NCBI RefSeq assembly: GCF_002777255.1
Contig: NZ_CP017634.1
Coordinates: forward strand, 4,166,903 to 4,230,902
DNA from: Candidatus Formimonas warabiya
GTDB taxonomy: Bacteria > Bacillota > Dehalobacteriia > Dehalobacteriales > Dehalobacteriaceae
Length of the DNA: 64,000 nucleotides
Direction: 5' to 3'
Shown: positions 31,279 to 45,095 of the stretch, one piece after another
How the letters are laid out: every line of letters begins with the position of its first letter
How positions within the stretch are numbered: the first letter of the stretch is position 1
Position numbers and translations under genes: made by a program
The notes under the pieces: model-generated
Told to the model about the DNA's origin: nothing
The model's database searches: none
Seen by the model: the letters and a program-made list of their open reading frames with translations, nothing else

Positions 31279-34200
31279 CTATGTATCGTAGCGGTGCCCA
31301 TGGTAGCTCAACCCCGTGCAGCGCCGGAGCAGGTCCATTGCCTTTGCTCTCTCTCCCGAATTCCGGTAGTTTTCCAGAAGAGCGTCGGCCGCCTCCAGAA
31401 AACCGTCCTCGCACTGCAGTCTGGCACTCTCCGCCCACAGGGCTTCCAGATCGTCCAGATACCGGCCGGTGTAGCAGTCTACCACCCTTTGGGCGTTTTC
31501 GGGTCCAGGCTGTCGCCGGAATTCGTCCGCCGCCTGCCGGAGCAGGTCATAATCGCAGATAATTTCCTCCCTGTTCAGGTGGTATACGCCTTTCTCATAC
31601 AGGATGGGATTGTCCGCCCCCAGGCTCTCGAAGGCCCGCCGGATTTCCCCCCGGCGCGTGTGGAACAGGTTGGTCACATTGGCCTCGCTGTCTTCCCACA
31701 AGTCGGCATAAATCTGTTCCCTGGTGACCCCCTGGGGATGTGCCAGCAGATAAGCCAGAAGCTCACGGGCCTTTTGCGTGCGGATTTTGACGGGACTTCC
31801 CCGATCGTAAGCGGGGGCGATATAGAAGTTTCCCAAGGTATGGATATAAACCCGTTCGGCCGTATATCCGCCATAGGAGAGCATTTCTCGGGTAAATTCC
31901 GGGGTGATGCCCGACTCCACAGCCAGTTTCAGCACAGAAGTAAAAAGCGGTTTGAAGCGAATGTAATAAAGGTGGTTGTATTGGCGGGAAAGTTCTAAAA
32001 AGCGCCGGGTGTATTCCCTTGCGGCATCCCTGTCTCCTTCCCGCAGATAAATGGCCGCCAGCCTTCCATAAGCAATGGTAGCATAAGCATAGCTTCCAAC
32101 CTCTTCCCCAATTTGGATGCATTGTTTGTAAAAACCCTTGCATTGTTCAGGGTCCCGGCCCAGGGTGTCCAAGGCGTTGGCGATACGTCCGTAGGCCAGG
32201 GATTGAAAAAACGGCGTTGTGCTTTTGAGGAGAGCAAGTGTTTCGCCGATAGACTGCCCGGCCTTCTCCGGCTGTTCCAGCAGGCGCGTGCATAGCCGCC
32301 ATATTTTGACAAACAAAAAATGATCCCGGGTGCTTCGGTTTAAAAGAGCGTATTCCTCTGCCATACTCAGATAACGGTCCACGGCTGAATACTCAAAGGT
32401 CATTCCCAGGTAGCGCTTCAAAAGCTCTACAGAATGGAGGATTTCCGCATGAAGCAGGTAATTGACGCTGTACTCTTCATAAAGCCCAAGCTGTTTTAAG
32501 CGTGCCAACTCTGCCTCCAGCAAAGGCAGCACTTTCTCTTCCTGTCCGGTTACCTGGTAAGCCTTGGCCGCATAGGCCCCGATGCTGTGACGCATCAGCC
32601 AGTCCTGTTCTTCCCGGGGGATGGACAGGGATTTTTCATACACTTTCAGACAGCTTTTGTAATCTCCCGTGTAAAAATAAATGACTGTCAAATATCGCTC
32701 AAACCAGGCCTTGACACCAGCCGCTCCGGATGTCAGGCATTGCTCCATCATCGCCATGGTCAGTTCCAGCGCGTCGGAGAGCCGGGAGGTCAGGGTAAGG
32801 TTGTGAATTTTTTCAATCATCACGCCGTACCAATTCTGCATGGGCGCATCCTGCAGCAAGGGCAGCAAGGCATCTATGCAGCGGGTACTTTCGTCGAAGG
32901 AAACCCTGTTCCGCAGTACCCTGGCCATATGGGTCATGGCGTGCACATAGAGATCTTTATCGTCGTTGCTCAACTGAGGAATGGCTGTGCGCAAGTACTT
33001 TTCCGCTTGATAAAAATCCCCCTGATCGGATAAAAACATACCTTTAGCCAACATCACCCGGGGGGACAAATCCGCAGACTGCTCTTCCAGAAAGTCAAAG
33101 TACTTTCTCAGGCTCCAGGTACGGCCCCAGTCAAAGGGTTTGTCAAGAATAGCACCGATACAGTCTTGGATGACATTTCCATTCTCTAAAAGTAGGGCAT
33201 AATCAGCGGCCTGTTCGTAATCCTTGCCATCATAACAGAAGGCCATGGCTTTGCTCAGGGTTTCTCTTCCCAGGCCGTCGTCATTTTGCTGTAAAAATAA
33301 GTGAAACAGGGCATGGTAGCGGTAAGAGGCGGCGGAAACCCGTTGTGTAAAAATATTGCGGTGGATCAGGTTCTCGAGTATTTCCCGGGAATTGCCGATA
33401 CCAAGCAGGAGGTCGCAAAGCCCGGTTTCCAGTACGGGCAGGCAGGAGGTCGCTTTCAGGAAATATTGGGTTTCCGCCGGCAGCTGCCGCAAAATCTCAT
33501 TTAACAGATAACGGTAAAGGTCCTGCTCCGCCTGGAGGCGCGATCCGGAAAGCATCCCGCCGTCTTTTGCCGCCAGGCGGTAAGATTGGATGGCCAAACT
33601 CCAGCCCTCGGTTGCTGCGTAAGTCTCTTCATCGAAGAAGCCCCACAGCTGTTCCGCCTCTTCCCGGCTGAAACATAAATCGTCTTTGGTGAATTCAGCG
33701 ATCCCTCCGGCCATTTTCAAGCGCAAAAGGCCGCTCCACGGTTCATGGCGGCTGGCCATGATCAGGGAGATGTTCGGGGGACAGGTCATTGCCCATGCGG
33801 TGAGCAGCCCTGTTACAGTATCATTATCAATCACATGGACATCATCCATCAGGATGGACAGTCTGCTCCGGCCGATTGCCTTCAGCAGGGCGGGCAGAAC
33901 GGTGGACGCAAATCTTTTCCTTCCGGCAAAGGGGATATAATCTGCCGCATGAAACTCAAATCGTCCCAGCTTTTCCCGAATGGACGCCTCCAGATGGCGC
34001 AGAAAAAACTGGGTATCGCTGTCCCGGTCATCCAGGGCAAGCCAGACCACATCATTACGGCCCTGGGCGTATTGCATCATCAGGGTGGTTTTTCCGTGGC
34101 CCGCATCCGCATGGATGTAGGTGAGCCTGCTGCCGGGAGGGGCAAGCTTCTCTACCAGGCGGGAACGGGGAATGATTGCTTCATCTGCTGCCTCAACCTG

Positions 34201-34428
34201 TCCGGGAGGCCTCTGCGGAACGGAAAGATCCTGCTTTCCCTTGATGTAACGGCCGGATTTGATTCTGGCGTCTTCCGGCTTTTTTGATCTTTCCGGAATC
34301 AACCAGGTCCAGCCATGGCGTTCCGTATCCTTGATCCTGCCCTCCAGGCAGAGGGTATGCACCCGGCGCTGGGAGATGCCCCATTTTTCCGCGGCCTCCT
34401 TGGGCGTTATATATTTCAGTCTGCGCAC
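31279..34428 (-). CDS. Large ATP-binding transcriptional regulator with C-terminal BTAD-like domain
   Basis: The protein has 1049 residues. The start is GTG 34428 just after GGAGGGG; a stop lies nine codons upstream. Residues 5-45 form an excisionase/MerR-type helix-turn-helix (YITPKEAAEKWGISQRRVH). A MalT/STAND-like ATPase follows, with Walker A ADAGHGKT (107-114) and Walker B ILMDDVHVID (~185). The centre (~400-850) is TPR-like. From ~875, IHTLGNFYIAP and GVTREQIYADLWED lead into a SARP/BTAD-type winged helix and a partial BTAD. The protein stops soon after, with GLSYHGHRYDT next to a palindromic repeat, so the C-terminus may be truncated. It is divergent from the sigma-factor operon and may control the RiPP cluster. 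Confidence 0.85.
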   Translation of the reverse strand: MRRLKYITPKEAAEKWGISQRRVHTLCLEGRIKDTERHGWTWLIPERSKKPEDARIKSGRYIKGKQDLSVPQRPPGQVEAADEAIIPRSRLVEKLAPPGSRLTYIHADAGHGKTTLMMQYAQGRNDVVWLALDDRDSDTQFFLRHLEASIREKLGRFEFHAADYIPFAGRKRFASTVLPALLKAIGRSRLSILMDDVHVIDNDTVTGLLTAWAMTCPPNISLIMASRHEPWSGLLRLKMAGGIAEFTKDDLCFSREEAEQLWGFFDEETYAATEGWSLAIQSYRLAAKDGGMLSGSRLQAEQDLYRYLLNEILRQLPAETQYFLKATSCLPVLETGLCDLLLGIGNSREILENLIHRNIFTQRVSAASYRYHALFHLFLQQNDDGLGRETLSKAMAFCYDGKDYEQAADYALLLENGNVIQDCIGAILDKPFDWGRTWSLRKYFDFLEEQSADLSPRVMLAKGMFLSDQGDFYQAEKYLRTAIPQLSNDDKDLYVHAMTHMARVLRNRVSFDESTRCIDALLPLLQDAPMQNWYGVMIEKIHNLTLTSRLSDALELTMAMMEQCLTSGAAGVKAWFERYLTVIYFYTGDYKSCLKVYEKSLSIPREEQDWLMRHSIGAYAAKAYQVTGQEEKVLPLLEAELARLKQLGLYEEYSVNYLLHAEILHSVELLKRYLGMTFEYSAVDRYLSMAEEYALLNRSTRDHFLFVKIWRLCTRLLEQPEKAGQSIGETLALLKSTTPFFQSLAYGRIANALDTLGRDPEQCKGFYKQCIQIGEEVGSYAYATIAYGRLAAIYLREGDRDAAREYTRRFLELSRQYNHLYYIRFKPLFTSVLKLAVESGITPEFTREMLSYGGYTAERVYIHTLGNFYIAPAYDRGSPVKIRTQKARELLAYLLAHPQGVTREQIYADLWEDSEANVTNLFHTRRGEIRRAFESLGADNPILYEKGVYHLNREEIICDYDLLRQAADEFRRQPGPENAQRVVDCYTGRYLDDLEALWAESARLQCEDGFLEAADALLENYRNSGERAKAMDLLRRCTGLSYHGHRYDT

Positions 34429-34746: not shown

Positions 34747-35325
34747 ATGGTTACACTGACGCAAACAGAGGAAACATCATTGGTTGCCCCGGCCAATGAT
34801 CATGAGCGCACATTTGTTGAACTTTATAACAGTTACTTTTCCCGGGTTTACAATTATGTGCATTACCGGGTGAACGATTTTCATGATGCCGACGATTTAA
34901 CCGGTCAGATCTTTGCCAAACTTTTTAGCAAACTAAAATATTACCGGCCGGAAAAGGCGCCCTTTGCCGCTTGGGTCTTCAGCATCGCCCGCAATGCCGT
35001 CACGGATTATTATCGCTCCCGGATGCGGAATCCTTCTACTCCCCTGGAGGAAACGGCAGATTTTATAGATTCCCGGCCCGGCCCGGAGGATATCGCCGCT
35101 GACCATGAAATGCACCGGCATCTGCGCAAGGCTTTAGCCTCCTTGACTCAGCGGGAGCGGGAAATCATTGCCTTGAAGTTTTGGAGCGGTTTTACCAACC
35201 GGGATATTGCCAGATTTACCGGTATCAGCGAAAGCAATACAGGGATCATCTTATTTCGGGCCATGCGGCGGCTGCGCCAAATCTTGGAAAGCCAGGGGAT
35301 GAGTATTGATGACGGAAATGACTAA
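34747..35325 (+). CDS. Sigma-70-family RNA polymerase sigma factor (ECF-like)
   Basis: The protein has 192 residues; GGAGGAGTACAAAGG precedes the ATG. Region 2 is at ~20-88: FVELYNSYFSRVYNYVHYRV, DADDLTGQIFAKLF and FAAWVFSIARNAVTDYYRSR. Region 4 is at ~120-180: LASLTQREREIIALKFWSG and NRDIARFTGISESNTGIILFRAMRRLR. Regions 1 and 3 are absent, as in extracytoplasmic-function sigma factors. The zinc-ribbon gene overlaps its end, and the RiPP precursor, maturase and exporter genes follow; three of their promoters share a non-standard motif that this factor probably recognises. Confidence 0.93.
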   Translation: MVTLTQTEETSLVAPANDHERTFVELYNSYFSRVYNYVHYRVNDFHDADDLTGQIFAKLFSKLKYYRPEKAPFAAWVFSIARNAVTDYYRSRMRNPSTPLEETADFIDSRPGPEDIAADHEMHRHLRKALASLTQREREIIALKFWSGFTNRDIARFTGISESNTGIILFRAMRRLRQILESQGMSIDDGND

Positions 35326-35692
35326 GGCGGAGATATACCTAACTTACCTGGATCAGATCTTAGCCGGGGAAAAAGATATCGGGCCGGTTGAGGATACTGA
35401 AGTGGCCAAACTCCTCCAGCTGGCCCAAAGCATGATTACCGCTGATTTCAGCGTGCATAGTGAAATCAGGGAGACTTTAAGAAAACAGCTTCTGGACCAG
35501 ATATCTCCGGAAGATAATTTCATTTTGGCCGATATATTGAAAGATGAACAGGAAGCGGAGGATGAGCTGACGGAAGAGGAATTAATGTATGCGGCCGCCG
35601 GACTGCCGGAAGAAGCCGGAGAAAATATCTGTCCCCGCTGCGGGGCAAGGATGAACAAAATGCACGGAAAATGTCCCGTCTGCCGTTATTAA
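35309..35692 (+). CDS. Zinc-ribbon protein, candidate anti-sigma partner
   Basis: The protein has 127 residues from the ATG at 35309; TTG at 35306 is also possible. It overlaps the sigma gene by 17 bases, so translation is coupled. The N-terminal ~100 residues are acidic and helical (IYLTYLDQILAGEKDIG, LLQLAQSMITADFSVHSEIRETLRKQLLDQI). The C-terminus is a zinc ribbon, ICPRCGARMN...GKCPVC. It has no membrane segment. Its position suggests a cytoplasmic modulator of the sigma factor, but it lacks the usual ZAS-domain His-x3-Cys-x2-Cys. The function is inferred from context only. Confidence 0.7.
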   Translation: MTEMTKAEIYLTYLDQILAGEKDIGPVEDTEVAKLLQLAQSMITADFSVHSEIRETLRKQLLDQISPEDNFILADILKDEQEAEDELTEEELMYAAAGLPEEAGENICPRCGARMNKMHGKCPVCRY

Positions 35693-35717: not shown

Positions 35718-35745
35718 TGTAATACATCGAAGAGAGCGGCGTACT
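35718..35745 (+). promoter_or_regulatory. ECF-type promoter of RiPP precursor genes
   Basis: TGTAATAC (35718-35725), 14 bases, CGTACT (35740-35745), 63 bases before the first precursor. The same arrangement with the same 14-base spacing occurs ahead of the maturase and exporter genes. Confidence 0.75.
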
Positions 35746-35807
35746 AACCTTTGAGAACACAAATTAAATGCGCACCAGATACACCAAAATAAGACGGAGG
35801 TGAGAAA

Positions 35808-36062
35808 ATGAGTGTCGAATCAGCAAAGGCCTTTATTGAAAAAATAAAGAGCGACGAGGACTTTAAAAACAAACTGGGACAGCTTAAAGACGGTCAGGCG
35901 CGGCTGGACTTTGCCAAAGGGGCGGGTTTTGATTTTACGGCGGAGGATATTGCCAAAGTGAAAGAGGAACAGGGTCTCACGGATGAAGAATTGGACGGCG
36001 TAGCCGGCGGCTGCGGGCATGCTTGCCTCGCCATACCAGGAGCGGACCTTAAATTTACGTAA
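35808..36062 (+). CDS. Nif11-type RiPP precursor peptide A
   Basis: The peptide has 84 residues; the ATG follows GGAGGTGAGAAA. The first 68 residues are a Nif11-like leader (SVESAKAFIEKIKSDEDFK, then AEDIAKVKEEQGLTDEELDGVAGG) ending in the double-glycine cut site used by C39 peptidases. The 16-residue core, CGHACLAIPGADLKFT, has two cysteines. It is nearly identical to precursor B in the leader and in CGHACL, and different after that. Maturation by the radical SAM enzyme at 36458 and export by the C39-type ABC transporter at 40139 are inferred from context. Confidence 0.93.
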   Translation: MSVESAKAFIEKIKSDEDFKNKLGQLKDGQARLDFAKGAGFDFTAEDIAKVKEEQGLTDEELDGVAGGCGHACLAIPGADLKFT

Positions 36063-36116
36063 AGTGATGTCGGATCATGGTCAAATGTACCCAAAAATAA
36101 AAAAGGAGGCTCTATT

Positions 36117-36368
36117 ATGAGTATCGAATCAGCAAAAGCATTCATCGAAAAAGTGAAAAATGACGAGGACTTTAAAAAGAAACTGGGAGAACTTAAAGAC
36201 GGCCAGGCGCGGCTGGACTTTGCCAAAGGGGCGGGTTTTGATTTTACGGCGGAGGATATTGCCAAAGTGAAAGAGGAACAGGGTCTCACGGATGAAGAAC
36301 TAGACGGCGTAGCCGGCGGCTGCGGGCATGCTTGCCTTGAAGGAATAGGGGATGTTCAAGTTTGGTAA
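36117..36368 (+). CDS. Nif11-type RiPP precursor peptide B
   Basis: The peptide has 83 residues and lies 54 bases after precursor A; AAGGAGG precedes the ATG. The 68-residue leader differs from that of A at only a few positions, including Val/Ile3, Lys/Ile13, Ser/Asn15 and Asn/Lys21. The 15-residue core is CGHACLEGIGDVQVW. Leader DNA is almost unchanged from ~36190 to 36320, which indicates recent duplication or gene conversion, while the core tail has diverged. It is the last gene before the strong terminator at 36388. Confidence 0.93.
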   Translation: MSIESAKAFIEKVKNDEDFKKKLGELKDGQARLDFAKGAGFDFTAEDIAKVKEEQGLTDEELDGVAGGCGHACLEGIGDVQVW

Positions 36369-36387
36369 ACTGACCTATTCATAAGCA

Positions 36388-36429
36388 ATACCCTCATTCC
36401 ACTTTGAACAAGGGAATGAGGGTATTTTT
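36388..36429. terminator. Strong bidirectional terminator between precursors and maturase
   Basis: ATACCCTCATTCC (36388-36400) pairs perfectly over 13 bases with GGAATGAGGGTAT (36413-36425), followed by TTTTT. It ends the precursor transcript (+) and lies 3' of the maturase gene (-). Confidence 0.92.
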
Positions 36430-36457
36430 ATCTTCCATTTGATGAGCATGTCCCCGG

Positions 36458-37777
36458 TTAAAAGTCGAGGGGACAGGGTTTGGGAGGAAATATTTCGTGA
36501 GCGTTAAGGAAAGCGCGGTCCTGGTCATCAAAGCGGCCGGCCAGAACTGCAGCCAGTTCAAGTTCCCGCTGTCTCAGGCGGCACATTTCCGGGGAGGGGG
36601 TCCAGGCTGAACCGCAGGAGCCCGCGTTATCATGTTTGCACCCTCCGGCGCAGTAGTAGCGGGCAAAACAAGCAGCGCAAGCCGGCACCCGGGTAAGGGG
36701 GGATTCCCGGTAAATTTCCCGCTCAAAGCCGGCTTCAAAGACATTTCCCAGCTTATAGCCATCCAGGCCGACGAAGCGGTGGCATAAATAGATATCCCCC
36801 GCACAGGAAACGGCGGTGAATTTTACACCGGCGCCGCAGGCATAGCGCATTTTTCTGTTGTGCAGAAGGGCCAGCAGGGCATGGAAAAGCTGGGCTTTAG
36901 ACTTCAGATCTTTTAAGGACCAACTATCCCTGTTTTTGACAAGCTTCAGCCATAAGTCCGCTTCCCGCTCCAATTCCCGGAGCAGGCCATCCAGCTTTCT
37001 GGCCTGGTTGGCTTTTACCGCTCCCTCTTCCCCTTCAAACAGTGAGGGGGATGCCGGCAAAAGGGTTACTTCCGGGAAACCGATATCCTGCAGCGCGTTT
37101 TTGATAAGTTCCGTCTTGCTGTCGTCGACGAGCACGGCATGAACGCAGGTTTCCGGCTTCGCCGCCAGCAGTTTTTTTACCCGGGGCAGAATGACGTCGT
37201 AAGAGCCCCGGCCGCCGGCAAAAGGCCGCTGCCGGTCCTGGATCTCCCTGGGGCCGTCCATACTGACCAGCACGTTGACATCATACTCCCGGAGAAACGA
37301 AATCATTTCCTCATCCAGCAGGGTCCCATTGGTCGTGACGTTGAAGCCTACTACCTTGTCCAGAGCGCCGGCTTTCTCCCGGGCGTAGGCCGCGACTTTT
37401 TTTATCAGAGGGAAATTCAAAAAGGGTTCGCCGCCGAAAAAGGAAATATAGATTTTTTTGGTGTTTCCCGCTTGTCCGAGCAGCCAGTCCACAGCCTGGA
37501 AGGCGGTTTTTTCCTCCATTTTGGCGCCGTCTTTTTTTTCATAGCAGTACACACAGCGCAGGTTGCACGCCTGGGTGACAAACAAGGCGATACTGATAAT
37601 AGGAACGGATAAGCCGGATGCCGGCGGTTTTTCCGGTTGGGCTGATACCCTTCTTAAGGTTTCGGCAGTCAGGTCATCAACAGCGCTTGCCTGCATTTTT
37701 TCAATATCAATGACATAATTTTCACCGCCGTATTGAAATACATGAAAGGGCATGATTGTTTTCGTTTTTTCGTTCAC
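36458..37777 (-). CDS. Radical SAM/SPASM peptide maturase
   Basis: The protein has 439 residues; GTG 37777 follows GGGGG. An N-terminal ~60-residue segment (FHVFQYGGENYVIDIEKMQ) probably binds the leader. The radical SAM cluster motif is CNLRCVYC (CxxxCxxC, ~72-79), followed by FFGGEPFLNF and VTTNGTLLDEE. The SPASM region has many cysteines: CGAG, CAGDIYLC, CAACFARYYCAGGC, and a final MC near residue 410. Enzymes of this type install thioether or other radical-derived links in RiPPs and are known beside Nif11 precursors. The residues modified in CGHAC are not predictable from sequence. The 3' end (KPCPLDF) contains GGGGACAGG, reminiscent of the repeat family. Confidence 0.9.
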   Translation of the reverse strand: MNEKTKTIMPFHVFQYGGENYVIDIEKMQASAVDDLTAETLRRVSAQPEKPPASGLSVPIISIALFVTQACNLRCVYCYEKKDGAKMEEKTAFQAVDWLLGQAGNTKKIYISFFGGEPFLNFPLIKKVAAYAREKAGALDKVVGFNVTTNGTLLDEEMISFLREYDVNVLVSMDGPREIQDRQRPFAGGRGSYDVILPRVKKLLAAKPETCVHAVLVDDSKTELIKNALQDIGFPEVTLLPASPSLFEGEEGAVKANQARKLDGLLRELEREADLWLKLVKNRDSWSLKDLKSKAQLFHALLALLHNRKMRYACGAGVKFTAVSCAGDIYLCHRFVGLDGYKLGNVFEAGFEREIYRESPLTRVPACAACFARYYCAGGCKHDNAGSCGSAWTPSPEMCRLRQRELELAAVLAGRFDDQDRAFLNAHEIFPPKPCPLDF

Positions 37778-37829
37778 AGAGTATCCCCCTTTTTTGCCGT
37801 CTTCAGGTTAAACCGCCTGATTGGTTTAG

Positions 37830-37845
37830 TTAACTTTAAAGTTAA
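37830..37845. promoter_or_regulatory. 16-base perfect palindrome at the maturase transcription start
   Basis: TTAACTTT-AAAGTTAA. It overlaps the -10 element CGTATT of the maturase promoter and the expected start of its RNA. An operator for a repressor is the simplest reading. Confidence 0.6.
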
Positions 37846-37871
37846 TACGTTTCGAAAGAGGGGTTATTACA
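37844..37871 (-). promoter_or_regulatory. ECF-type promoter of the maturase gene
   Basis: On the minus strand, TGTAATAA (37871-37864), 14 bases, CGTATT (37849-37844), 67 bases before the GTG start. It matches the precursor and exporter promoters. Confidence 0.75.
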
Positions 37872-37924
37872 AAAAAATTATTTTTATATGAATCCGTTTT
37901 CGGAATAGGAATCGCTGCAAAAAC

Positions 37925-37952
37925 TGTAATACTTTCTTTTGTCTGACGTATT
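37925..37952 (+). promoter_or_regulatory. ECF-type promoter of the exporter operon
   Basis: TGTAATAC (37925-37932), 14 bases, CGTATT (37947-37952), 58 bases before the lipoprotein start. It is the third copy of the cluster motif and is divergent from the maturase promoter, with 53 bases between them. Confidence 0.75.
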
Positions 37953-38009: not shown

Positions 38010-39137
38010 GTGTTGAAAAAAAAGGGCGGAATTTTCGGGGGCTTCATGTTAGGCCTGTTTCTCTTATTTGGCCTGACCGGCTGCACGCAGCCGGCAGAAC
38101 CTCAAGAGATCGTCATCGGGGTGGTCTGGCCTTTTGCCGCCGACAACGATCTGTTTAACGAAGGCATCGATTTGGCCGTCAAGGAGATCAACGCCAGCGG
38201 CGGCATTAACGGCAAAGAACTGAAGCTGCTCAAAGAAGACGACGGTTCCGAGGTTGTCAAAGGGATCGCCATCGCCGAGTCTTTGGCGGAAAATAAGTCT
38301 GTCCGGGCGGTGATCGGGCACCGCAATTCTTTTGTCTCCATCCCGGCTGCCGCCATTTACGAACAGGCCGGGCTTACCATGCTGTCCCCGGCTTCTACGG
38401 CCCCGGAACTCACCCAAAACAATTACCGGCATATCTTCCGCGACCTTCCCGGGGATGAGGAAATCGCGCGGCAGCTGGCAAACCACCTGGCCGGGCAGGG
38501 CTTAAGGCGGCTGGTGATATATTATTCCGCGGATGCTTACGGGACCGGTTTGGCCAATTCCTTTGAGGATGCGGCCAAGTTATTGGGAATCACCATCGTC
38601 GACCGTTTTAACTACTATTCCGGCCCGGAAGAACTGAAACGCCTGCACAGCAGGTGGCAGGCCTTTGGTTTTGACGGTGTCTTTATCGCCTCGTCCCTGC
38701 CCGGAGGAGCCCGGTTAATTGCTGATGCCGGGCAAATCGGCATAGACGGACCTTTTGCGGCCGGAAACGCCCTCGACGCTCCGGAGCTGGCCGCCATAGG
38801 CGGAAAAGCGGCGGCAGGAACGGTGGTCGGCTCCGTGTTTGATCCGGGCAGCGACCGCCCGGAGGTACAACGTTTTGTGGCGGCTTTCCGGGAAACGTAC
38901 CGGGAAAAACCGAGTTCCCATGCGGCCCTAGGTTATGACGCTGTCAAGATGCTTGCGGCCGCGATGGAAAAAACCGGCCGGCAGGACCGGGCCTCGGTCG
39001 CCGAGGGATTAAGGAATTTGGGCAGATGGCCGGGTGTCTGCGGGGTGCATGAACTGAGCGCAGCGGGAGACGACCTGGGCGACCTGGTAGTGCTGAAGCA
39101 ATTACAGGACGGGGAATTTGTCGCCCTGGAAAAATAG
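38010..39137 (+). CDS. LivK-like substrate-binding lipoprotein in RiPP export operon
   Basis: The protein has ~375 residues. GTG 38010 or TTG 38013 follows GGAGAGG. A signal peptide ends in the lipobox LTGC (~24). The mature part is a type I periplasmic-binding fold of the branched-chain amino acid class: EIVIGVVWPFAADNDLFNEGIDLAVKEINASGGINGKELKLL (in family form), then VIGHRNSFVSIPAAAIYEQAGLTMLSPASTAPEL, and YDAVKMLAAAMEKTG near the end. There are no LivHMGF partners; instead HlyD and export ABC genes follow on the same strand. It may be a surface receptor for the mature peptide, an immunity protein or a signal sensor. Confidence 0.85.
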   Translation: MLKKKGGIFGGFMLGLFLLFGLTGCTQPAEPQEIVIGVVWPFAADNDLFNEGIDLAVKEINASGGINGKELKLLKEDDGSEVVKGIAIAESLAENKSVRAVIGHRNSFVSIPAAAIYEQAGLTMLSPASTAPELTQNNYRHIFRDLPGDEEIARQLANHLAGQGLRRLVIYYSADAYGTGLANSFEDAAKLLGITIVDRFNYYSGPEELKRLHSRWQAFGFDGVFIASSLPGGARLIADAGQIGIDGPFAAGNALDAPELAAIGGKAAAGTVVGSVFDPGSDRPEVQRFVAAFRETYREKPSSHAALGYDAVKMLAAAMEKTGRQDRASVAEGLRNLGRWPGVCGVHELSAAGDDLGDLVVLKQLQDGEFVALEK

Positions 39138-39150
39138 AGAGGTGCCGGGC

Positions 39151-40137
39151 ATGAAACAAAACATCTTCCGGGAAGTATCCTTAAAGAGGCTTTCCTCGCC
39201 GGAACAGCTGGATCAACTGATCAAAGTGACTTCACCCAAGGGCTGGCTGGCCCTGATCGCTCTGGGCCTTCTTTTGGCCGGGGTGATCGTCTGGAGTTTT
39301 ATGGGCAGTATTCCCACGAAAATAGCGGGCCAGGGGATCCTCTTAAATGACGGCGGCGTCTTTTCCTTAACCCATGATAGCTCCGGCCAGGTCCTTGACG
39401 TCCGTTTCGCGGCCGGAGACGTGGTAAAAAAAGGAGATGTCATCGCCAGAATTGAACAGCCCCAGCTGGTGGAAAAGATTAACGGTGTGCTCGGTACGCT
39501 CCGGGATTTGGAGAAGAATCAACAGACCTCTTCCCCCGAATATCGGAACTTGGAAAACCAGGTGGCTGAGCTGCGGGAGGAACTGGACTACCGCTCGCAA
39601 ATCGTTTCCCCGATTGAGGGGCGGGTTTTAGAACTGAATATCCGTCCGGGCCGTATGGTCCAGCCGGGTGAGACCCTGGCCACGCTGGAACAGTATGGTG
39701 CTGTGGTCCGGCTGGAGGCTGTGCTCTATGTTCCCGCCGAACTTACGGGAGAAATCCGGCCCGGGATGGAGGTTCAAATCTCTCCGACTATTGTCAACAA
39801 AGAGGAATACGGTTTCATGCTGGGAAGGGTTACCGCTGTTGCGGAATATCCGGCCACCGCCCAGAGCATGATGCAAACCCTGGGCAACGAAAATCTGGTC
39901 TCCTTATTGGCGGGGCAGGGCGCCCCCCTGGAGGTGCAGGTTGACCTGACTCCGGACGGCAGTACGGCAAGCGGGTATAAGTGGTCTTCGCCTGCCGGTC
40001 CGCCGCTTTCCATTCCCAGCGGAACGCTGGTCCAGGGTGCGGTCGTGATTGCCAGGGAAAAACCGGTTGCCAAGGTGATCCCTTTCTTCGGGGCGCGGGC
40101 CGGTGAAAACGGGGAGCGCGAAAGTGGGGAGAAATAA
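39151..40137 (+). CDS. HlyD-like membrane fusion protein, NHLP-type secretion
   Basis: The protein has 328 residues from the ATG at 39151 (GAGAGGTG upstream). A cytoplasmic N-terminus of ~40 residues (FREVSLKRLSSPEQLDQLIKVTSPKGW) is typical of the NHLP bacteriocin-system secretion protein. One membrane segment follows (LALIALGLLLAGVIVWSFMG), then lipoyl-type beta domains: GQVLDVRFAAGDVVKKGDVIARIEQP and VSPIEGRVLELNIRPGRMVQPGETL. A coiled coil links them. It should connect the two ABC proteins to the cell wall side. The stop codon is separated from the next start by a single base. Confidence 0.9.
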   Translation: MKQNIFREVSLKRLSSPEQLDQLIKVTSPKGWLALIALGLLLAGVIVWSFMGSIPTKIAGQGILLNDGGVFSLTHDSSGQVLDVRFAAGDVVKKGDVIARIEQPQLVEKINGVLGTLRDLEKNQQTSSPEYRNLENQVAELREELDYRSQIVSPIEGRVLELNIRPGRMVQPGETLATLEQYGAVVRLEAVLYVPAELTGEIRPGMEVQISPTIVNKEEYGFMLGRVTAVAEYPATAQSMMQTLGNENLVSLLAGQGAPLEVQVDLTPDGSTASGYKWSSPAGPPLSIPSGTLVQGAVVIAREKPVAKVIPFFGARAGENGERESGEK

Positions 40138-40138
40138 C

Positions 40139-42325
40139 GTGGGAAAAAATGCCGAAATAAAAATCCCCGCCGTCGTCAGGGTTCCCACCGTCCTTCAGAT
40201 GGAAGCTGTGGAATGCGGGGCGGCGTCCCTGGCCATGATCTTAAGATATTTTGGAAAATATGTGCCGCTGGAGCAGGTCCGGATCGCCTGCGGAGTATCC
40301 CGGGACGGCAGCAAGGCCAGCAATATCCTGAAAGCGGCCCGGCAATACGGCCTGGAGGCCAAAGGGTTCCGCAAGGAACCGGAGAAACTGAAGAAAATGC
40401 CCCTGCCCGTGATTATTCATTGGAATTTCAGTCATTTTATGGTCCTGGAAGGGTTCCGCAAGGGTAAAGTCCTTTTAAATGATCCCGCCGCCGGCCGGCG
40501 GCGCGTCACGGAGGAAGAATTCAACCAGTCTTTTACCGGGATCACCCTCACTTTCAGCCCCACACCGGAGTTTCAAAAAGACGGCAGAAAACCCAGCCTG
40601 GTCTCCGCTTTCATAAAACGGCTGCGGGGTTCGGAAGCCGCTTTGCTTTACGTGGTTCTTGCCGGCCTGGCCCTGGTCATTCCGGGCCTGGTCCTTCCCG
40701 TATTTGCCAGGATTTTTGTCGACGATATTCTGCTTGCCGGCAAAGATTCCTGGATCGCCCCCCTGCTTTTGGGGATGGGAGTGACGGTGGCCATGCGCGG
40801 CATTCTCACCTGGCTCCGGCAGTATTACCTGTTAAGATTGGAGTCGAAGATTGCCCTGACGTCCTCCAGCCGCTTTTGGTGGCATATTTTAAAGCTGCCG
40901 GCGGAATTTTTCGCCCAGCGTTCGGCCGGAGACATCGCGTCCCGGATGCTGAGCAACGACAGGGTGGCCGCATTGCTGTCGGGCAAACTGGCCACCGCAG
41001 TTTTAAATCTGATCATGATCGTCTTCTACTTTATTTTGATGCTCCGCTATAATATGGTCCTGGCTTTGGCCGGTCTGGTGATTGCCCTCGTCAATATGGC
41101 GTATTTGAAAATGGTTTCCGTCCAAAGAAAAGACCAAAACAGCAGGCTCTTAAAAGACCGGAGCATGGCAGCCGCTACCGGGATGACGGGCTTGCAGATT
41201 ATCGAAACCCTCAAAGCCACCGGTTCGGAATCGGACTTTTTCGCCAAGTGGGCGGGATACCAGGCCAAAGCGCTGAATGCGGAGCAGGAGTTGGGGAATT
41301 CTTCCCAATACCTGGCCGTGCTTCCCACCTTTTTGACCGGGATCAATAACACCGTCGTCCTGGCTTTAGGCGCTTATTTTATCCTTGAGGGGCAAATGAC
41401 CATCGGCATGCTGGTCGCCTTCCAAAGCCTGATGACCAGCTTTATGACGCCTGTCACGGAAATTGTAGGACTGGGGGCCGAGCTGCAGGAAGTGGAAGGG
41501 GAAATGAACCGCCTGGACGATGTTTTACAATACCTGCCGGAGCCGGGAACCGGGGACGAAGAGAAAGGGGCGGAGGAAGATCAGGTGCCCCCTGCAGGGC
41601 AAAAGCTGGAGGGGTTTGTGGAACTGAAGGGAATTACTTTCGGCTATAGCCTATTGGAACCTCCGTTAATTGAAGATTTCGGTTTAAAGCTCCGGCCGGG
41701 ATCCCGGGTGGCGCTGGTGGGCGGTTCCGGCAGCGGCAAATCCACCGTGGTCAAAATCCTGGCTGGCATTTACAAACCCTGGTCCGGGCAAATCCTTCTG
41801 GACGGCCGAACCCGGGCAGACTGGCCCCGGGCGGTGATCACCGATTCCCTGGCCATGGTCGACCAGGAGATCCGCATGTTTGAGGGAAGCGTGCGGGACA
41901 ATATCACCCTGTGGGACGAAACGGTTTCGGAATTCGAACTGGTCCGGGCGGCCAAGGACGCCTGCATCCATGAGGATATCACGGCCCGGGCCGGCGGCTA
42001 TGACCAGCCGGTGGAAGAAGGCGGCAAAAATTTCAGCGGCGGGCAAAGGCAGCGGCTGGAGATCGCCCGGGCTTTGGTGCAAAACCCCGCGATCATCATC
42101 CTGGATGAAGCCACCAGCGCGCTGGACCCATTAACGGAAAAAATCGTGGATGAAAACATCCGACGCCGGGGGTGTACCTGTGTCATCGTGGCCCACCGCT
42201 TGAGCACCATCCGGGACTGTGACGAAATCATCGTCCTGGAAAAAGGAAAAATCGCCGAACGGGGCACCCATGAGGAATTATATGCGCGGGGCGGGCTTTA
42301 CGCCGGTCTGATTAGAACCGGTTAA
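40139..42325 (+). CDS. NHLP-type ABC transporter with C39 peptidase (PCAT)
   Basis: The protein has 728 residues. GTG 40139 (after GGGGAGAAATAAC) is preferred to the earlier in-frame GTG 40103. The C39 peptidase domain (~15-140) has the catalytic Cys in MEAVECGAASLAMIL, the His in HWNFSHFMVL and the Asp in LLNDPAAG. Six membrane segments occupy ~170-440. The ATPase has Walker A GGSGSGKST, the signature FSGGQRQRLEIARAL, Walker B IIILDEATSALD and the H-loop VAHRLSTI. It should cut the Nif11 leader after Gly-Gly and export the core. The operon downstream provides a partner half-transporter. Confidence 0.93.
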   Translation: MGKNAEIKIPAVVRVPTVLQMEAVECGAASLAMILRYFGKYVPLEQVRIACGVSRDGSKASNILKAARQYGLEAKGFRKEPEKLKKMPLPVIIHWNFSHFMVLEGFRKGKVLLNDPAAGRRRVTEEEFNQSFTGITLTFSPTPEFQKDGRKPSLVSAFIKRLRGSEAALLYVVLAGLALVIPGLVLPVFARIFVDDILLAGKDSWIAPLLLGMGVTVAMRGILTWLRQYYLLRLESKIALTSSSRFWWHILKLPAEFFAQRSAGDIASRMLSNDRVAALLSGKLATAVLNLIMIVFYFILMLRYNMVLALAGLVIALVNMAYLKMVSVQRKDQNSRLLKDRSMAAATGMTGLQIIETLKATGSESDFFAKWAGYQAKALNAEQELGNSSQYLAVLPTFLTGINNTVVLALGAYFILEGQMTIGMLVAFQSLMTSFMTPVTEIVGLGAELQEVEGEMNRLDDVLQYLPEPGTGDEEKGAEEDQVPPAGQKLEGFVELKGITFGYSLLEPPLIEDFGLKLRPGSRVALVGGSGSGKSTVVKILAGIYKPWSGQILLDGRTRADWPRAVITDSLAMVDQEIRMFEGSVRDNITLWDETVSEFELVRAAKDACIHEDITARAGGYDQPVEEGGKNFSGGQRQRLEIARALVQNPAIIILDEATSALDPLTEKIVDENIRRRGCTCVIVAHRLSTIRDCDEIIVLEKGKIAERGTHEELYARGGLYAGLIRTG

Positions 42326-42359: not shown

Positions 42360-45095
42360 ATGTCTATTGCAGATTTTTTTGACAGGGAAGGCACAAAGAT
42401 TGCGCTTGAAGGCAGCAAACCCCAATTACTCGACGATCCCGGCTTTGTCTGGCTGGTCGGGCCGGAGCAGGTTTCTGTTTTCTTAACGGCTTTGGCGTCG
42501 GACAACCAGCCGGGGGTCAAAACTTTCCTGTTTGAAGCCGGACCGGGAGAATTGCTTTTCGGCCTGACCCCGGAAGGAGCACCGGAAAAATTGGCCTTAC
42601 TGGCTGTGGGTCCGTTAGGTTCCGGCTTGATCCGGCTGGAAGCAAAGCGGCTGGAAGAAGTGCCGGCGGGGGAAATGTCCGGGGAAGCAGCCCGCTTGAC
42701 GGCCCGTTGGCGGGAAAATCTGAGAAAGGCCGGCAGCGGCAAAGAAGACGGTGGGAGCAGGGAAGCGGCACTTACAGAAGCCGCTATAGGAGAAGTTGCC
42801 GCTTCAGGGGACCCCTGGCAGCGGGAGAATTATCACAGCCAGGCTCTCCGCTCCATCACGGAACTTTGGCAGGAAAAGAAACAGGCGGAAATAAACCGCC
42901 TGCAAAGAAAGAAAGACAACGACCGGCGGCTGATGGATCAGGCACTTTGCCGACTGACCGCCCTGAATCAGAAAGAGAAAGAGATTGGCCTGCAGGAAGA
43001 GAGCGGCGATCCCCTGCTGGATGCCTGCCGCTTGGTAGGGCAAAGTATGCAGATGGAAATTGTGCCGCCTGCTTCAAACAGCGAGGGAAGCAACGGCGAT
43101 AACAGAAGCGCAGGCAGCGCTCCGGATCTTACCCTAGACGCGATTGCCCGTGCTTCCCGCATCCGGACCAGGGAAGTGGCTTTAACCGGAGAATGGTATA
43201 AAGAGGACAGCGGGCCGATCCTGGGGTTTATGGAAGAAGGCGGCAGACCGGTTGCCCTGATTCCGGTTTCACCTGCCGCCTATATTCTTCACGACCCTGT
43301 TTTACACAGCCGAAAAAAGGTGGACCGGGAAACGGCTGCTCAAATCAGTGGTTGGGGGTTTGTTTTCTTCCGTCCGTTCAGCCATAAAGAGATCAAGCTA
43401 GGCGATCTTCTGTCTTTTGGCCTCCAAAGCTGCTGGAAACAGGACTTGCTGGTGATTGTCCTCATGGGTGTTCTGGGGGGCCTTCTGGGTACGGCCGTTC
43501 CCCTGGCCACCGGCATCGTCTTCGACAGCATTATTCCGGAAGGGGAAAAGGGTGCGCTTCTGCAAATCGCTTTGATCCTGGGGGCCAGCGCCCTGGCCGC
43601 CATGCTTTTTCAATTGACCCGTTCTTTGGCGACCATGCGCCTGGAAGGAAAAATGGACGGTTCTCTGCAGGCGGCGGTCTGGGACCGCCTGCTCAGCCTG
43701 CCGGTGCCCTTTTTCAAACAGTTTTCGGCTGGGGAATTGGCTTTGCGGGCGATGGGGATCAGCCAGATCCGGACCATCCTTTCAGGAACGACGCTCAATA
43801 CCATTCTCTCCGGTATTTTTTCGGTATTCACCTTTGTGCTGCTTTTTTATTATGATGTTCGGCTGGCCGGGGTGGCCGCCGTGCTGGTCATCCTGGCGGT
43901 CCTGGTGATGGGGTATCTGGGTTACCGCAAGGTAAGCTGGGAGCGCAAAGTCCTGGAGGTTTCCAACCATATCTTAGGCTTGATGCTGCAGTTGATTGGC
44001 GGGGTGGCCAAATTCCAGGTGGCCGGGGCGGAGAACAGGGCCTTTTACCGCTGGGCCCGGGAATTCGGCTGGCAGCGGGAACTGACTTTCCGCCGAGAAA
44101 CGGTGGCCAACGCCTTGACGGCTTTTAATACTGTTTTCCCCGTTCTGTCCAGTGTGATTATTTTCTATGTCCTGACTTCCTCGGCGGCGCCGCTGCCGGC
44201 CGGTCAGTTTATCGGCTTTTATTCGGCTTTTACAACCTTTATGCTGTCCATGGTTTCCCTGTCGGACGCTTTGATCGGCGTCAACCTGGTGATTCCCCTG
44301 TACCAAAGGGCCAAACCCATCCTGGAGACCTTGCCCGAAGACGATGAGACCAAGATCAATCCCCGGGTTCTGACCGGTTCCATTGAAGTCAGCCACGTTT
44401 CTTTCCGCTACCAGGCGGACGGTCCCCTGGTCCTGCAGGATGTTTCTTTCCGGATCGAGGAGGGGGATTATGTCGCTTTGGTCGGCACTTCCGGCTGCGG
44501 CAAATCCACACTGTTTCGCATCCTGCTGGGTTTCGAAAAACCGGAGACCGGGAACATCTATTATGACGGCCAGGACCTTTCTAAAGTGGATATCCGGGCC
44601 GTGCGCAGGCAACTGGGCGTGGTGCTGCAAAACGGGCAGCTCATGACCGGCAACATCTTAAGCAATATTATCGGCGCCAATCCCCGCCTGACCATCGACG
44701 ACGCCTGGGAAGCGGCCAGGATGGCCGGTATGGAAGAGGACATCCGGGAAATGCCCATGGGCATGCACACCATAATCAGCGAGGGAGCCGGCACCATCTC
44801 CGGCGGGCAAAAACAGCGCCTGATGATCGCCCGGGCCATCGTCAATAAACCGAGAATCATTTTCTTTGACGAGGCCACCAGCGCTCTGGACAACCGGACC
44901 CAGGCTATCGTCAGCCAAAGCCTGGATACGCTCCAGGCGACCCGGGTGGTGATTGCCCACCGGCTGAGCACCATTATGAACTGCAACAAGATTTTCGTGA
45001 TGGATCAGGGGAGAATTGTGGAGCGGGGGACTTACCGGGAGCTGATGGAGAAGGAAGGAATTTTTGCCGACCTGGCCAGGAGACAGCTGGCTTAA
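42360..45095 (+). CDS. NHLP-type ABC transporter permease/ATPase
   Basis: The protein has 911 residues; AAGCAGGTGAATT precedes the ATG. The N-terminal ~340 residues are soluble, with an inactive peptidase-like or regulatory segment (AISADFFDRE-type start, then coiled-coil EKKQAEINRLQRKKDNDRRLM). Six membrane segments lie at ~370-640. The ATPase has Walker A GTSGCGKST, the signature ISGGQKQRLMIARAI, Walker B IIFFDEATSALD and the H-loop IAHRLSTI. This corresponds to the second ABC protein of NHLP export systems, which accompanies the C39-type exporter. It is the last gene of the operon; no hairpin follows immediately. Confidence 0.9.
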   Translation: MSIADFFDREGTKIALEGSKPQLLDDPGFVWLVGPEQVSVFLTALASDNQPGVKTFLFEAGPGELLFGLTPEGAPEKLALLAVGPLGSGLIRLEAKRLEEVPAGEMSGEAARLTARWRENLRKAGSGKEDGGSREAALTEAAIGEVAASGDPWQRENYHSQALRSITELWQEKKQAEINRLQRKKDNDRRLMDQALCRLTALNQKEKEIGLQEESGDPLLDACRLVGQSMQMEIVPPASNSEGSNGDNRSAGSAPDLTLDAIARASRIRTREVALTGEWYKEDSGPILGFMEEGGRPVALIPVSPAAYILHDPVLHSRKKVDRETAAQISGWGFVFFRPFSHKEIKLGDLLSFGLQSCWKQDLLVIVLMGVLGGLLGTAVPLATGIVFDSIIPEGEKGALLQIALILGASALAAMLFQLTRSLATMRLEGKMDGSLQAAVWDRLLSLPVPFFKQFSAGELALRAMGISQIRTILSGTTLNTILSGIFSVFTFVLLFYYDVRLAGVAAVLVILAVLVMGYLGYRKVSWERKVLEVSNHILGLMLQLIGGVAKFQVAGAENRAFYRWAREFGWQRELTFRRETVANALTAFNTVFPVLSSVIIFYVLTSSAAPLPAGQFIGFYSAFTTFMLSMVSLSDALIGVNLVIPLYQRAKPILETLPEDDETKINPRVLTGSIEVSHVSFRYQADGPLVLQDVSFRIEEGDYVALVGTSGCGKSTLFRILLGFEKPETGNIYYDGQDLSKVDIRAVRRQLGVVLQNGQLMTGNILSNIIGANPRLTIDDAWEAARMAGMEEDIREMPMGMHTIISEGAGTISGGQKQRLMIARAIVNKPRIIFFDEATSALDNRTQAIVSQSLDTLQATRVVIAHRLSTIMNCNKIFVMDQGRIVERGTYRELMEKEGIFADLARRQLA

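Follow-up and report, generated by a model that had tools for sequence, protein, structure and literature searches.

MibX/MibW and PspX/PspW are the ECF sigma/anti-sigma pairs of the microbisporicin and planosporicin lantibiotic clusters, in which production is controlled by a cluster-encoded ECF sigma factor and its co-encoded anti-sigma factor, with MibR or PspR as a further pathway regulator (PMC3933326). BldN-family ECF sigmas have RsbN-type anti-sigma factors that are membrane-anchored (PMC8103513). Among Firmicute ECF sigmas, Tt-RpoE1 of Thermoanaerobacter tengcongensis has a determined promoter, tGTTAC-16-CGTC, and activates its own gene (PMC3397946). Clusters that combine Nif11 precursors, a maturase, and the NHLM exporter set were described by Haft and colleagues, who also treated NHLP precursors encoded next to cyclodehydratases in Syntrophomonas and Pelotomaculum but nowhere mentioned sigma factors or transcription (PMC2887384).

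The stretch of DNA analyzed here (the window; 64 kb) contains a Nif11/NHLM RiPP cluster, in which the precursors, the radical SAM maturase, and three export proteins scored above curated NCBIfam cut-offs. As in the MibX and PspX systems, an ECF sigma gene, an anti-sigma-like gene, and a further regulator gene lie with the cluster; those systems belong to actinobacterial lantibiotic clusters, whereas the window RiPP is of the Nif11/radical SAM type. The anti-sigma factors of the MibX and PspX systems are membrane proteins. By contrast, the window encodes a soluble anti-sigma-like protein with a leader-like signature. The genes discussed below are:

31279..34428, minus strand: MalT/SARP-like large regulator, divergent from the sigma gene and a possible upstream input (MalT-like match, TPR repeats; no ECF site)
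34747..35325, plus strand: ECF sigma factor that would read the three sites (Sigma70_r2 and Sigma70_r4, both above Pfam cut-offs)
35309..35692, plus strand: anti-sigma-like protein, 127 aa (N-terminal homology to membrane anti-sigma factors; orthologs always adjoin sigma)
35808..36062, plus strand: Nif11-like RiPP precursor A (TIGR03798 above cut-off)
36117..36368, plus strand: Nif11-like RiPP precursor B (TIGR03798 above cut-off)
36458..37777, minus strand: radical SAM Nif11 peptide maturase (TIGR04064 above cut-off)
38010..39137, plus strand: substrate-binding lipoprotein, gene 1 of the exporter operon (PF13458)
39118..40137, plus strand: HlyD-like NHLP secretion protein (TIGR03794 above cut-off)
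40103..42325, plus strand: C39 peptidase/ABC exporter (NHLM ABC1), proposed reader of leader signatures (TIGR03796, PF03412)
42360..45095, plus strand: second NHLM ABC exporter protein, ABC2 (TIGR03797 above cut-off)

The nearest literature joining RiPPs, ECF sigmas, and anti-sigma factors concerned MibX/MibW, PspX/PspW, and methanobactin clusters, and we found no earlier description of a leader-like anti-sigma factor in the RiPP, ECF, and anti-sigma papers within the search, most subscription papers lying outside it. The promoter and anti-sigma switch proposed below is a new form of ECF control of antibiotic clusters.

Three candidate ECF-type promoter sites

An initial sequence-only reading had proposed that a motif, TGTAATAM-N14-CGTAYT, was shared by all three promoters of the RiPP cluster with identical spacing. 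Pattern searches returned three exact, equally spaced matches at 35718-35745 (+), 37871-37844 (–), and 37925-37952 (+), and no further zero-mismatch match in the 64-kb window. The sites had been placed 58-67 bases before the start codons that they serve; counted as intervening bases, the distances to the 35808 ATG, 37777 GTG, and 38010 GTG were 62, 66, and 57. When refined, the elements were a TGTAAT –35 box, a 16-base spacer, and a CGTAYT –10 box usually followed by AAC or AA, a combination with the GTAA-like –35 box, –10 CGT, and spacer of 16-17 that characterize ECF-type promoters.

35718..35745, plus strand: candidate ECF promoter 1 (TGTAAT-16-CGTACT), 5' of the two Nif11 precursor genes; conserved in L041, L042, and L090
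37844..37871, minus strand: candidate ECF promoter 2 (TGTAAT-16-CGTATT), 5' of the radical SAM maturase gene; counterparts in L041, L042, and L090
37925..37952, plus strand: candidate ECF promoter 3 (TGTAAT-16-CGTATT), 5' of the exporter operon; conserved in L041, L042, and L090

The sites had also been described as departing from the usual TTGACA/TATAAT pattern. No sigma-70 promoters were found at the three sites, and sigma-70-type matches in the promoter region were in no excess over shuffles. As had been claimed, neither the sigma gene nor the large regulator had such a site upstream, and the best-scoring sites of the window were the three listed above. Across the genome, which was searched as a single contig of 6,441,270 bases, TGTAATA-N15-CGTAYT had three perfect matches, one at each of the cluster's promoters (for the precursors, the radical SAM enzyme, and the exporter). 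With one mismatch allowed, there were nine matches versus 25 for a backward-pattern control, and no further genomic site is therefore conspicuous. These three sites appear to be the only full-pattern targets of the sigma factor in the genome. The genome-wide count, the conservation in orthologs, and the shuffle controls ruled out a chance origin of the sites.

Conservation in orthologous and related clusters

Searches confined to the order and class of the window found no ortholog, whereas sampling 399 Bacillota genomes across the phylum supplied useful relatives. Radical SAM orthologs were present in four of these genomes (G126, G156, G084, and G340, the last broken), and a further search added G469; most radical SAM matches (~32-38% identity) were left out as presumed other maturases, such as SCIFF-type enzymes. 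The same protein matched only remote radical SAM proteins in viral contigs and in genome contigs. Sigma, partner, precursor, maturase, and exporter genes were all present in G126 (locus L041), G156 (L042), and G469 (L090), and the sigma orthologs of L041 and L042 were 62-69% identical to that of the window. The regulator adjoining sigma varied, being MalT/SARP-like in the window (31279-34428) and a histidine kinase with or without a response regulator in the relatives (L041:14379-16782; L042:6025-8413; L090:1193-2932); kinase and response-regulator genes lay beside sigma in L041 and L042, and a kinase gene in L090.

In these three sigma-bearing clusters, each from another genus, the motif was kept at the same three promoters, before the precursor(s), the maturase, and the exporter. 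L041 had a separate site for each of its two precursors, one site in L042 had a 17-base spacer, and two sites in L090 read TGTAAC. No motif rose above shuffle level in L040 or L043, which are radical SAM/Nif11 loci with no adjacent sigma gene.

More distant clusters carried related sites. In G057 (L078) and G174 (L079), a sigma gene whose product is ~40% identical to the window sigma lay between an NHLP precursor gene and ThcOx/YcaO genes, downstream of the precursor, which bears a site. TGTAAT was present upstream of the precursor in both loci; the site of the YcaO gene read TGTAAT in L079 and TATAAT in L078. Judging from this arrangement, the same switch probably serves a different RiPP type, a YcaO/NHLP cluster with sites before precursor and YcaO genes. 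In the sequence available around the related sigma genes of L080, L092, and L115, the motif was not found; L080 and L092 are short contigs.

Several features of these loci deserve separate mention. An amino-acid ABC-type substrate-binding lipoprotein (38010-39137 in the window) heads the peptide exporter operon in the window and in its orthologs. A transposase-like gene (L042:11732-13390) separates the divergent promoters of the maturase and the exporter in G156, where both motif copies survive. The cluster of G340 is decaying (L043:9944-10742, L056:8947-10125), with damaged sigma, partner, and maturase genes and with sigma and maturase far apart.

The sigma factor and its promoter preference

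The 192-aa sigma factor matched PF04542, PF08281, and TIGR02937 above cut-offs and belongs to the ECF class (group IV). Its best curated model was that of the BldN family (TIGR02952), but its score of 150.5 bits fell short of the equivalog cut-off of 206.45.

Multiple observations support the assignment of the three sites to this sigma factor. First, among its relatives (22 matches from the phylum sample plus L091 from a class search), 16 have the ordinary membrane anti-sigma layout, with a partner of ~266-326 aa containing a hydrophobic segment after the sigma gene, and 12 of these 16 sigma genes are themselves preceded by TGTAAT-16-CGT, most often in the form TGTAATG-N15-CGTATT; in the other four, no self-promoter match was found. 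Second, a matrix made from the self-promoters of relatives, using only 11 sites and twelve box positions, placed the three cluster sites in the top three ranks of the 64 kb, and the score of the third was never reached in 40 Markov shuffles of that sequence. Third, the region 4 recognition helix (SESNxGVILxR) is largely common to the sigma clade. Because of these self-promoters, the matrix ranking and shuffles, and the common helix, we accept the assignment and conclude that the three sites are very probably promoters read by the cluster-encoded ECF sigma (34747-35325), at which it would bind and transcription would start. The original suggestion that the motif marks the regulon of this sigma is likewise supported by the orthologous clusters and by relatives' self-promoters with the same 16-base spacer. 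Weighing against the assignment are the variant sites of L042 and L090, the related sigmas of L080, L092, and L115 with no motif nearby, and the four membrane-type relatives with no self-promoter match.

Tt-RpoE1 provides a determined Firmicute precedent, with the same spacer and related boxes, but differs in activating its own gene, whereas no such site precedes the sigma gene of the window, whose product would control the RiPP cluster (PMC3397946). The absence of an own site, already noted in the window, extended to the RiPP-associated sigmas, unlike 12 of the 16 membrane-type relatives: no self-promoter lay within 300 bases in nine assigned leader-mimic sigmas where this was checked. No NHLM peptidase-exporter was found beside four membrane-type sigma loci examined more widely.

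Two other readers of the sites were weighed. Regulator genes adjoin the sigma gene in the window, L041, and L042, and the sites could in principle be operators for a transcription factor (MalT/SARP-like or a response regulator) rather than sigma-specific promoter elements. We consider this extremely unlikely, as the motif is constant while the type of regulator changes between clusters, it also precedes sigma genes to which no such regulator role is assigned, and its spacing and sequence fit the –35/–10 elements of Firmicute ECF sigmas such as Tt-RpoE1 (PMC3397946). The same genome also encodes a paralogous sigma (6024602-6025090) that is 46% identical to the cluster sigma, has a membrane anti-sigma partner, shares the recognition helix, and is preceded by a self-promoter, TGTAATG-N15-CGTATA, nearly identical to the cluster sites. 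ECF promoters read mainly by this paralog would make the cluster answer the paralog's envelope signal, and the paralog could also cross-talk with the cluster sites. However, the cluster sigma has been kept beside motif-bearing genes in four genera, Nif11/radical SAM loci with no adjacent sigma gene have lost or never had the motif, and the sites of the window fit TGTAATA and CGTAYT and are not exact copies of the paralog's own site, all of which makes reading mainly by the paralog very unlikely.

Reading by the cluster sigma would give the Nif11/NHLP clusters of anaerobic Bacillota a concrete on-switch. The sigma factor expressed alone should activate the cluster, and TGTAAT-16-CGTAYT should be usable for finding its targets.

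A soluble partner with a leader-like signature

The anti-sigma-like gene lies directly downstream of sigma with a 17-base overlap, a layout repeated in L041, L042, and L090. Residues 1-64 of its product align with the N-terminal parts of the membrane anti-sigma-like partners (hhalign probability 97.7), which were themselves assigned by layout and DUF4367 and not by experiment. In hmmsearch, these membrane-partner N-termini matched all seven soluble-type proteins tried at 22-33 bits, with E-values not calibrated on a large database. The gene at 35309-35692 most likely encodes the soluble anti-sigma factor of the cluster sigma, which it would sequester. Although TIGR02952 is the best model for its sigma, the partner is not membrane-anchored as RsbN-type factors are (PMC8103513). 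Its highest 19-residue hydropathy mean was 0.76, compared to ~1.7-2.7 in the membrane type, and no transmembrane segment of the MibW/RsbN kind was evident. In place of the membrane part are two elements:

35564..35602, plus strand: leader-like signature ELTEEELMYAAAG within the anti-sigma-like protein (precursor-trained matrix, 395 ORFs)
35630..35683, plus strand: zinc-ribbon-like C-terminal segment, CPRCG...CPVC (4 Cys invariant in orthologs; weak NF049953 match)

Structure prediction for the partner was poor (mean pLDDT 60), and a fold search with this weak model gave no match.

The C39 domain recognizes a leader helix in precursors, with Leu at –12, Leu at –7, and a small or aliphatic residue at –4. 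The window partner carries the corresponding double-Gly leader signature (hydrophobic residues at –12, –7, and –4; small residues at –2/–1), with Ala rather than Gly at –2, as in most leader mimics. Leader signatures of precursors include GLTDEELDGVAGG and ELSDEQLDAVAGG; the leader-like stretches of the orthologous partners are ELDEEDLEYVAAG, ELDEEDLEHVVAAG, and ELDEENLNYVVAAG, and those of the partners of distant sigmas are ELSDDELEGISAAG (L078, L079), ELEDDDLDLVAGG (L080), ELEDDALDLVAGG (L115), and NLSDEELDMAVAAG (L117). When 395 ORFs were ranked by a matrix made from precursors only, the top 18 included precursors, precursor-like ORFs of L118, and the leader-like partners; the L090 partner, in 20th place, was the sole partner below them.

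The distant partners are short soluble proteins encoded beside ECF sigma genes (L078:9576-9902, L079:10276-10602, L080:4297-4593, L115:7605-7919, L117:8378-8593), and the loci of those in L080, L115, and L117 are directly beside NHLM exporter genes. Another short soluble protein with a leader-like double-Gly signature, KMTDDELDMVVAAG, is encoded beside a Nif11 precursor (L116:8418-8642), with no sigma gene seen adjoining. None of the short leader-signature proteins of L078, L079, L080, L115, L116, and L117 matched a Pfam family. A single origin of the leader-mimic type did not emerge from the sigma tree (support 21/37).

We tentatively propose that the leader-like tail lets the C39 peptidase-exporter, for which precursor leaders compete, control release of the sigma factor. 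An upstream regulator, MalT/SARP-like here and two-component in the relatives, would probably set the levels of sigma and anti-sigma, and the anti-sigma would hold sigma until its tail is engaged, most plausibly by an idle C39 exporter. Such an exporter might bind or cut the anti-sigma and free sigma, which would switch on precursor, maturase, and exporter together; abundant precursor would compete for the exporter and close the loop. With Ala at –2, most mimics might be bound yet poorly cut. Such proteins could form a class of soluble anti-sigma factors, found with several Bacillota RiPP types, in which the membrane sensor was traded for the export and cleavage signature of a RiPP leader, creating a sensor of export occupancy, although we think this somewhat less probable than not. 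If the leader-mimic idea is true, this would be export feedback in which a regulator counterfeits the address label of the cargo, and the cell may thereby gauge how much export capacity it has.

Two other roles for the partner's C-terminal part bear on this proposal. The four Cys residues invariant in the orthologs would suit a zinc or redox sensor, as in ZAS-type anti-sigma factors, with the ribbon rather than the leader-like stretch doing the sensing; the ribbon is missing in L078, L079, L080, L115, L116, and L117, all of which have the leader-like stretch, and we find this role doubtful. The partner might instead be a RiPP-like precursor whose leader is the anti-sigma-like domain and whose exported cargo is the zinc ribbon, in which case export itself would remove the inhibitor. 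Its leader-like signature, the Cys-bearing segment behind it, and the adjacent C39 exporter genes would suit such a role. However, in other lineages the signature is followed by a short, charged tail that often has no Cys (L080, L116, L117), unlike a core peptide, and most of these proteins have Ala instead of Gly at –2; a precursor role is improbable.

The L118 ORFs that ranked with the precursors are three in number (L118:8446-11573), have a GG leader signature near the N-terminus (KMNFEELDGVAGG, AMTDDQLDNVAGG, and IMGDAELDNVAGG), and have a sigma gene and an NHLM exporter upstream of them.
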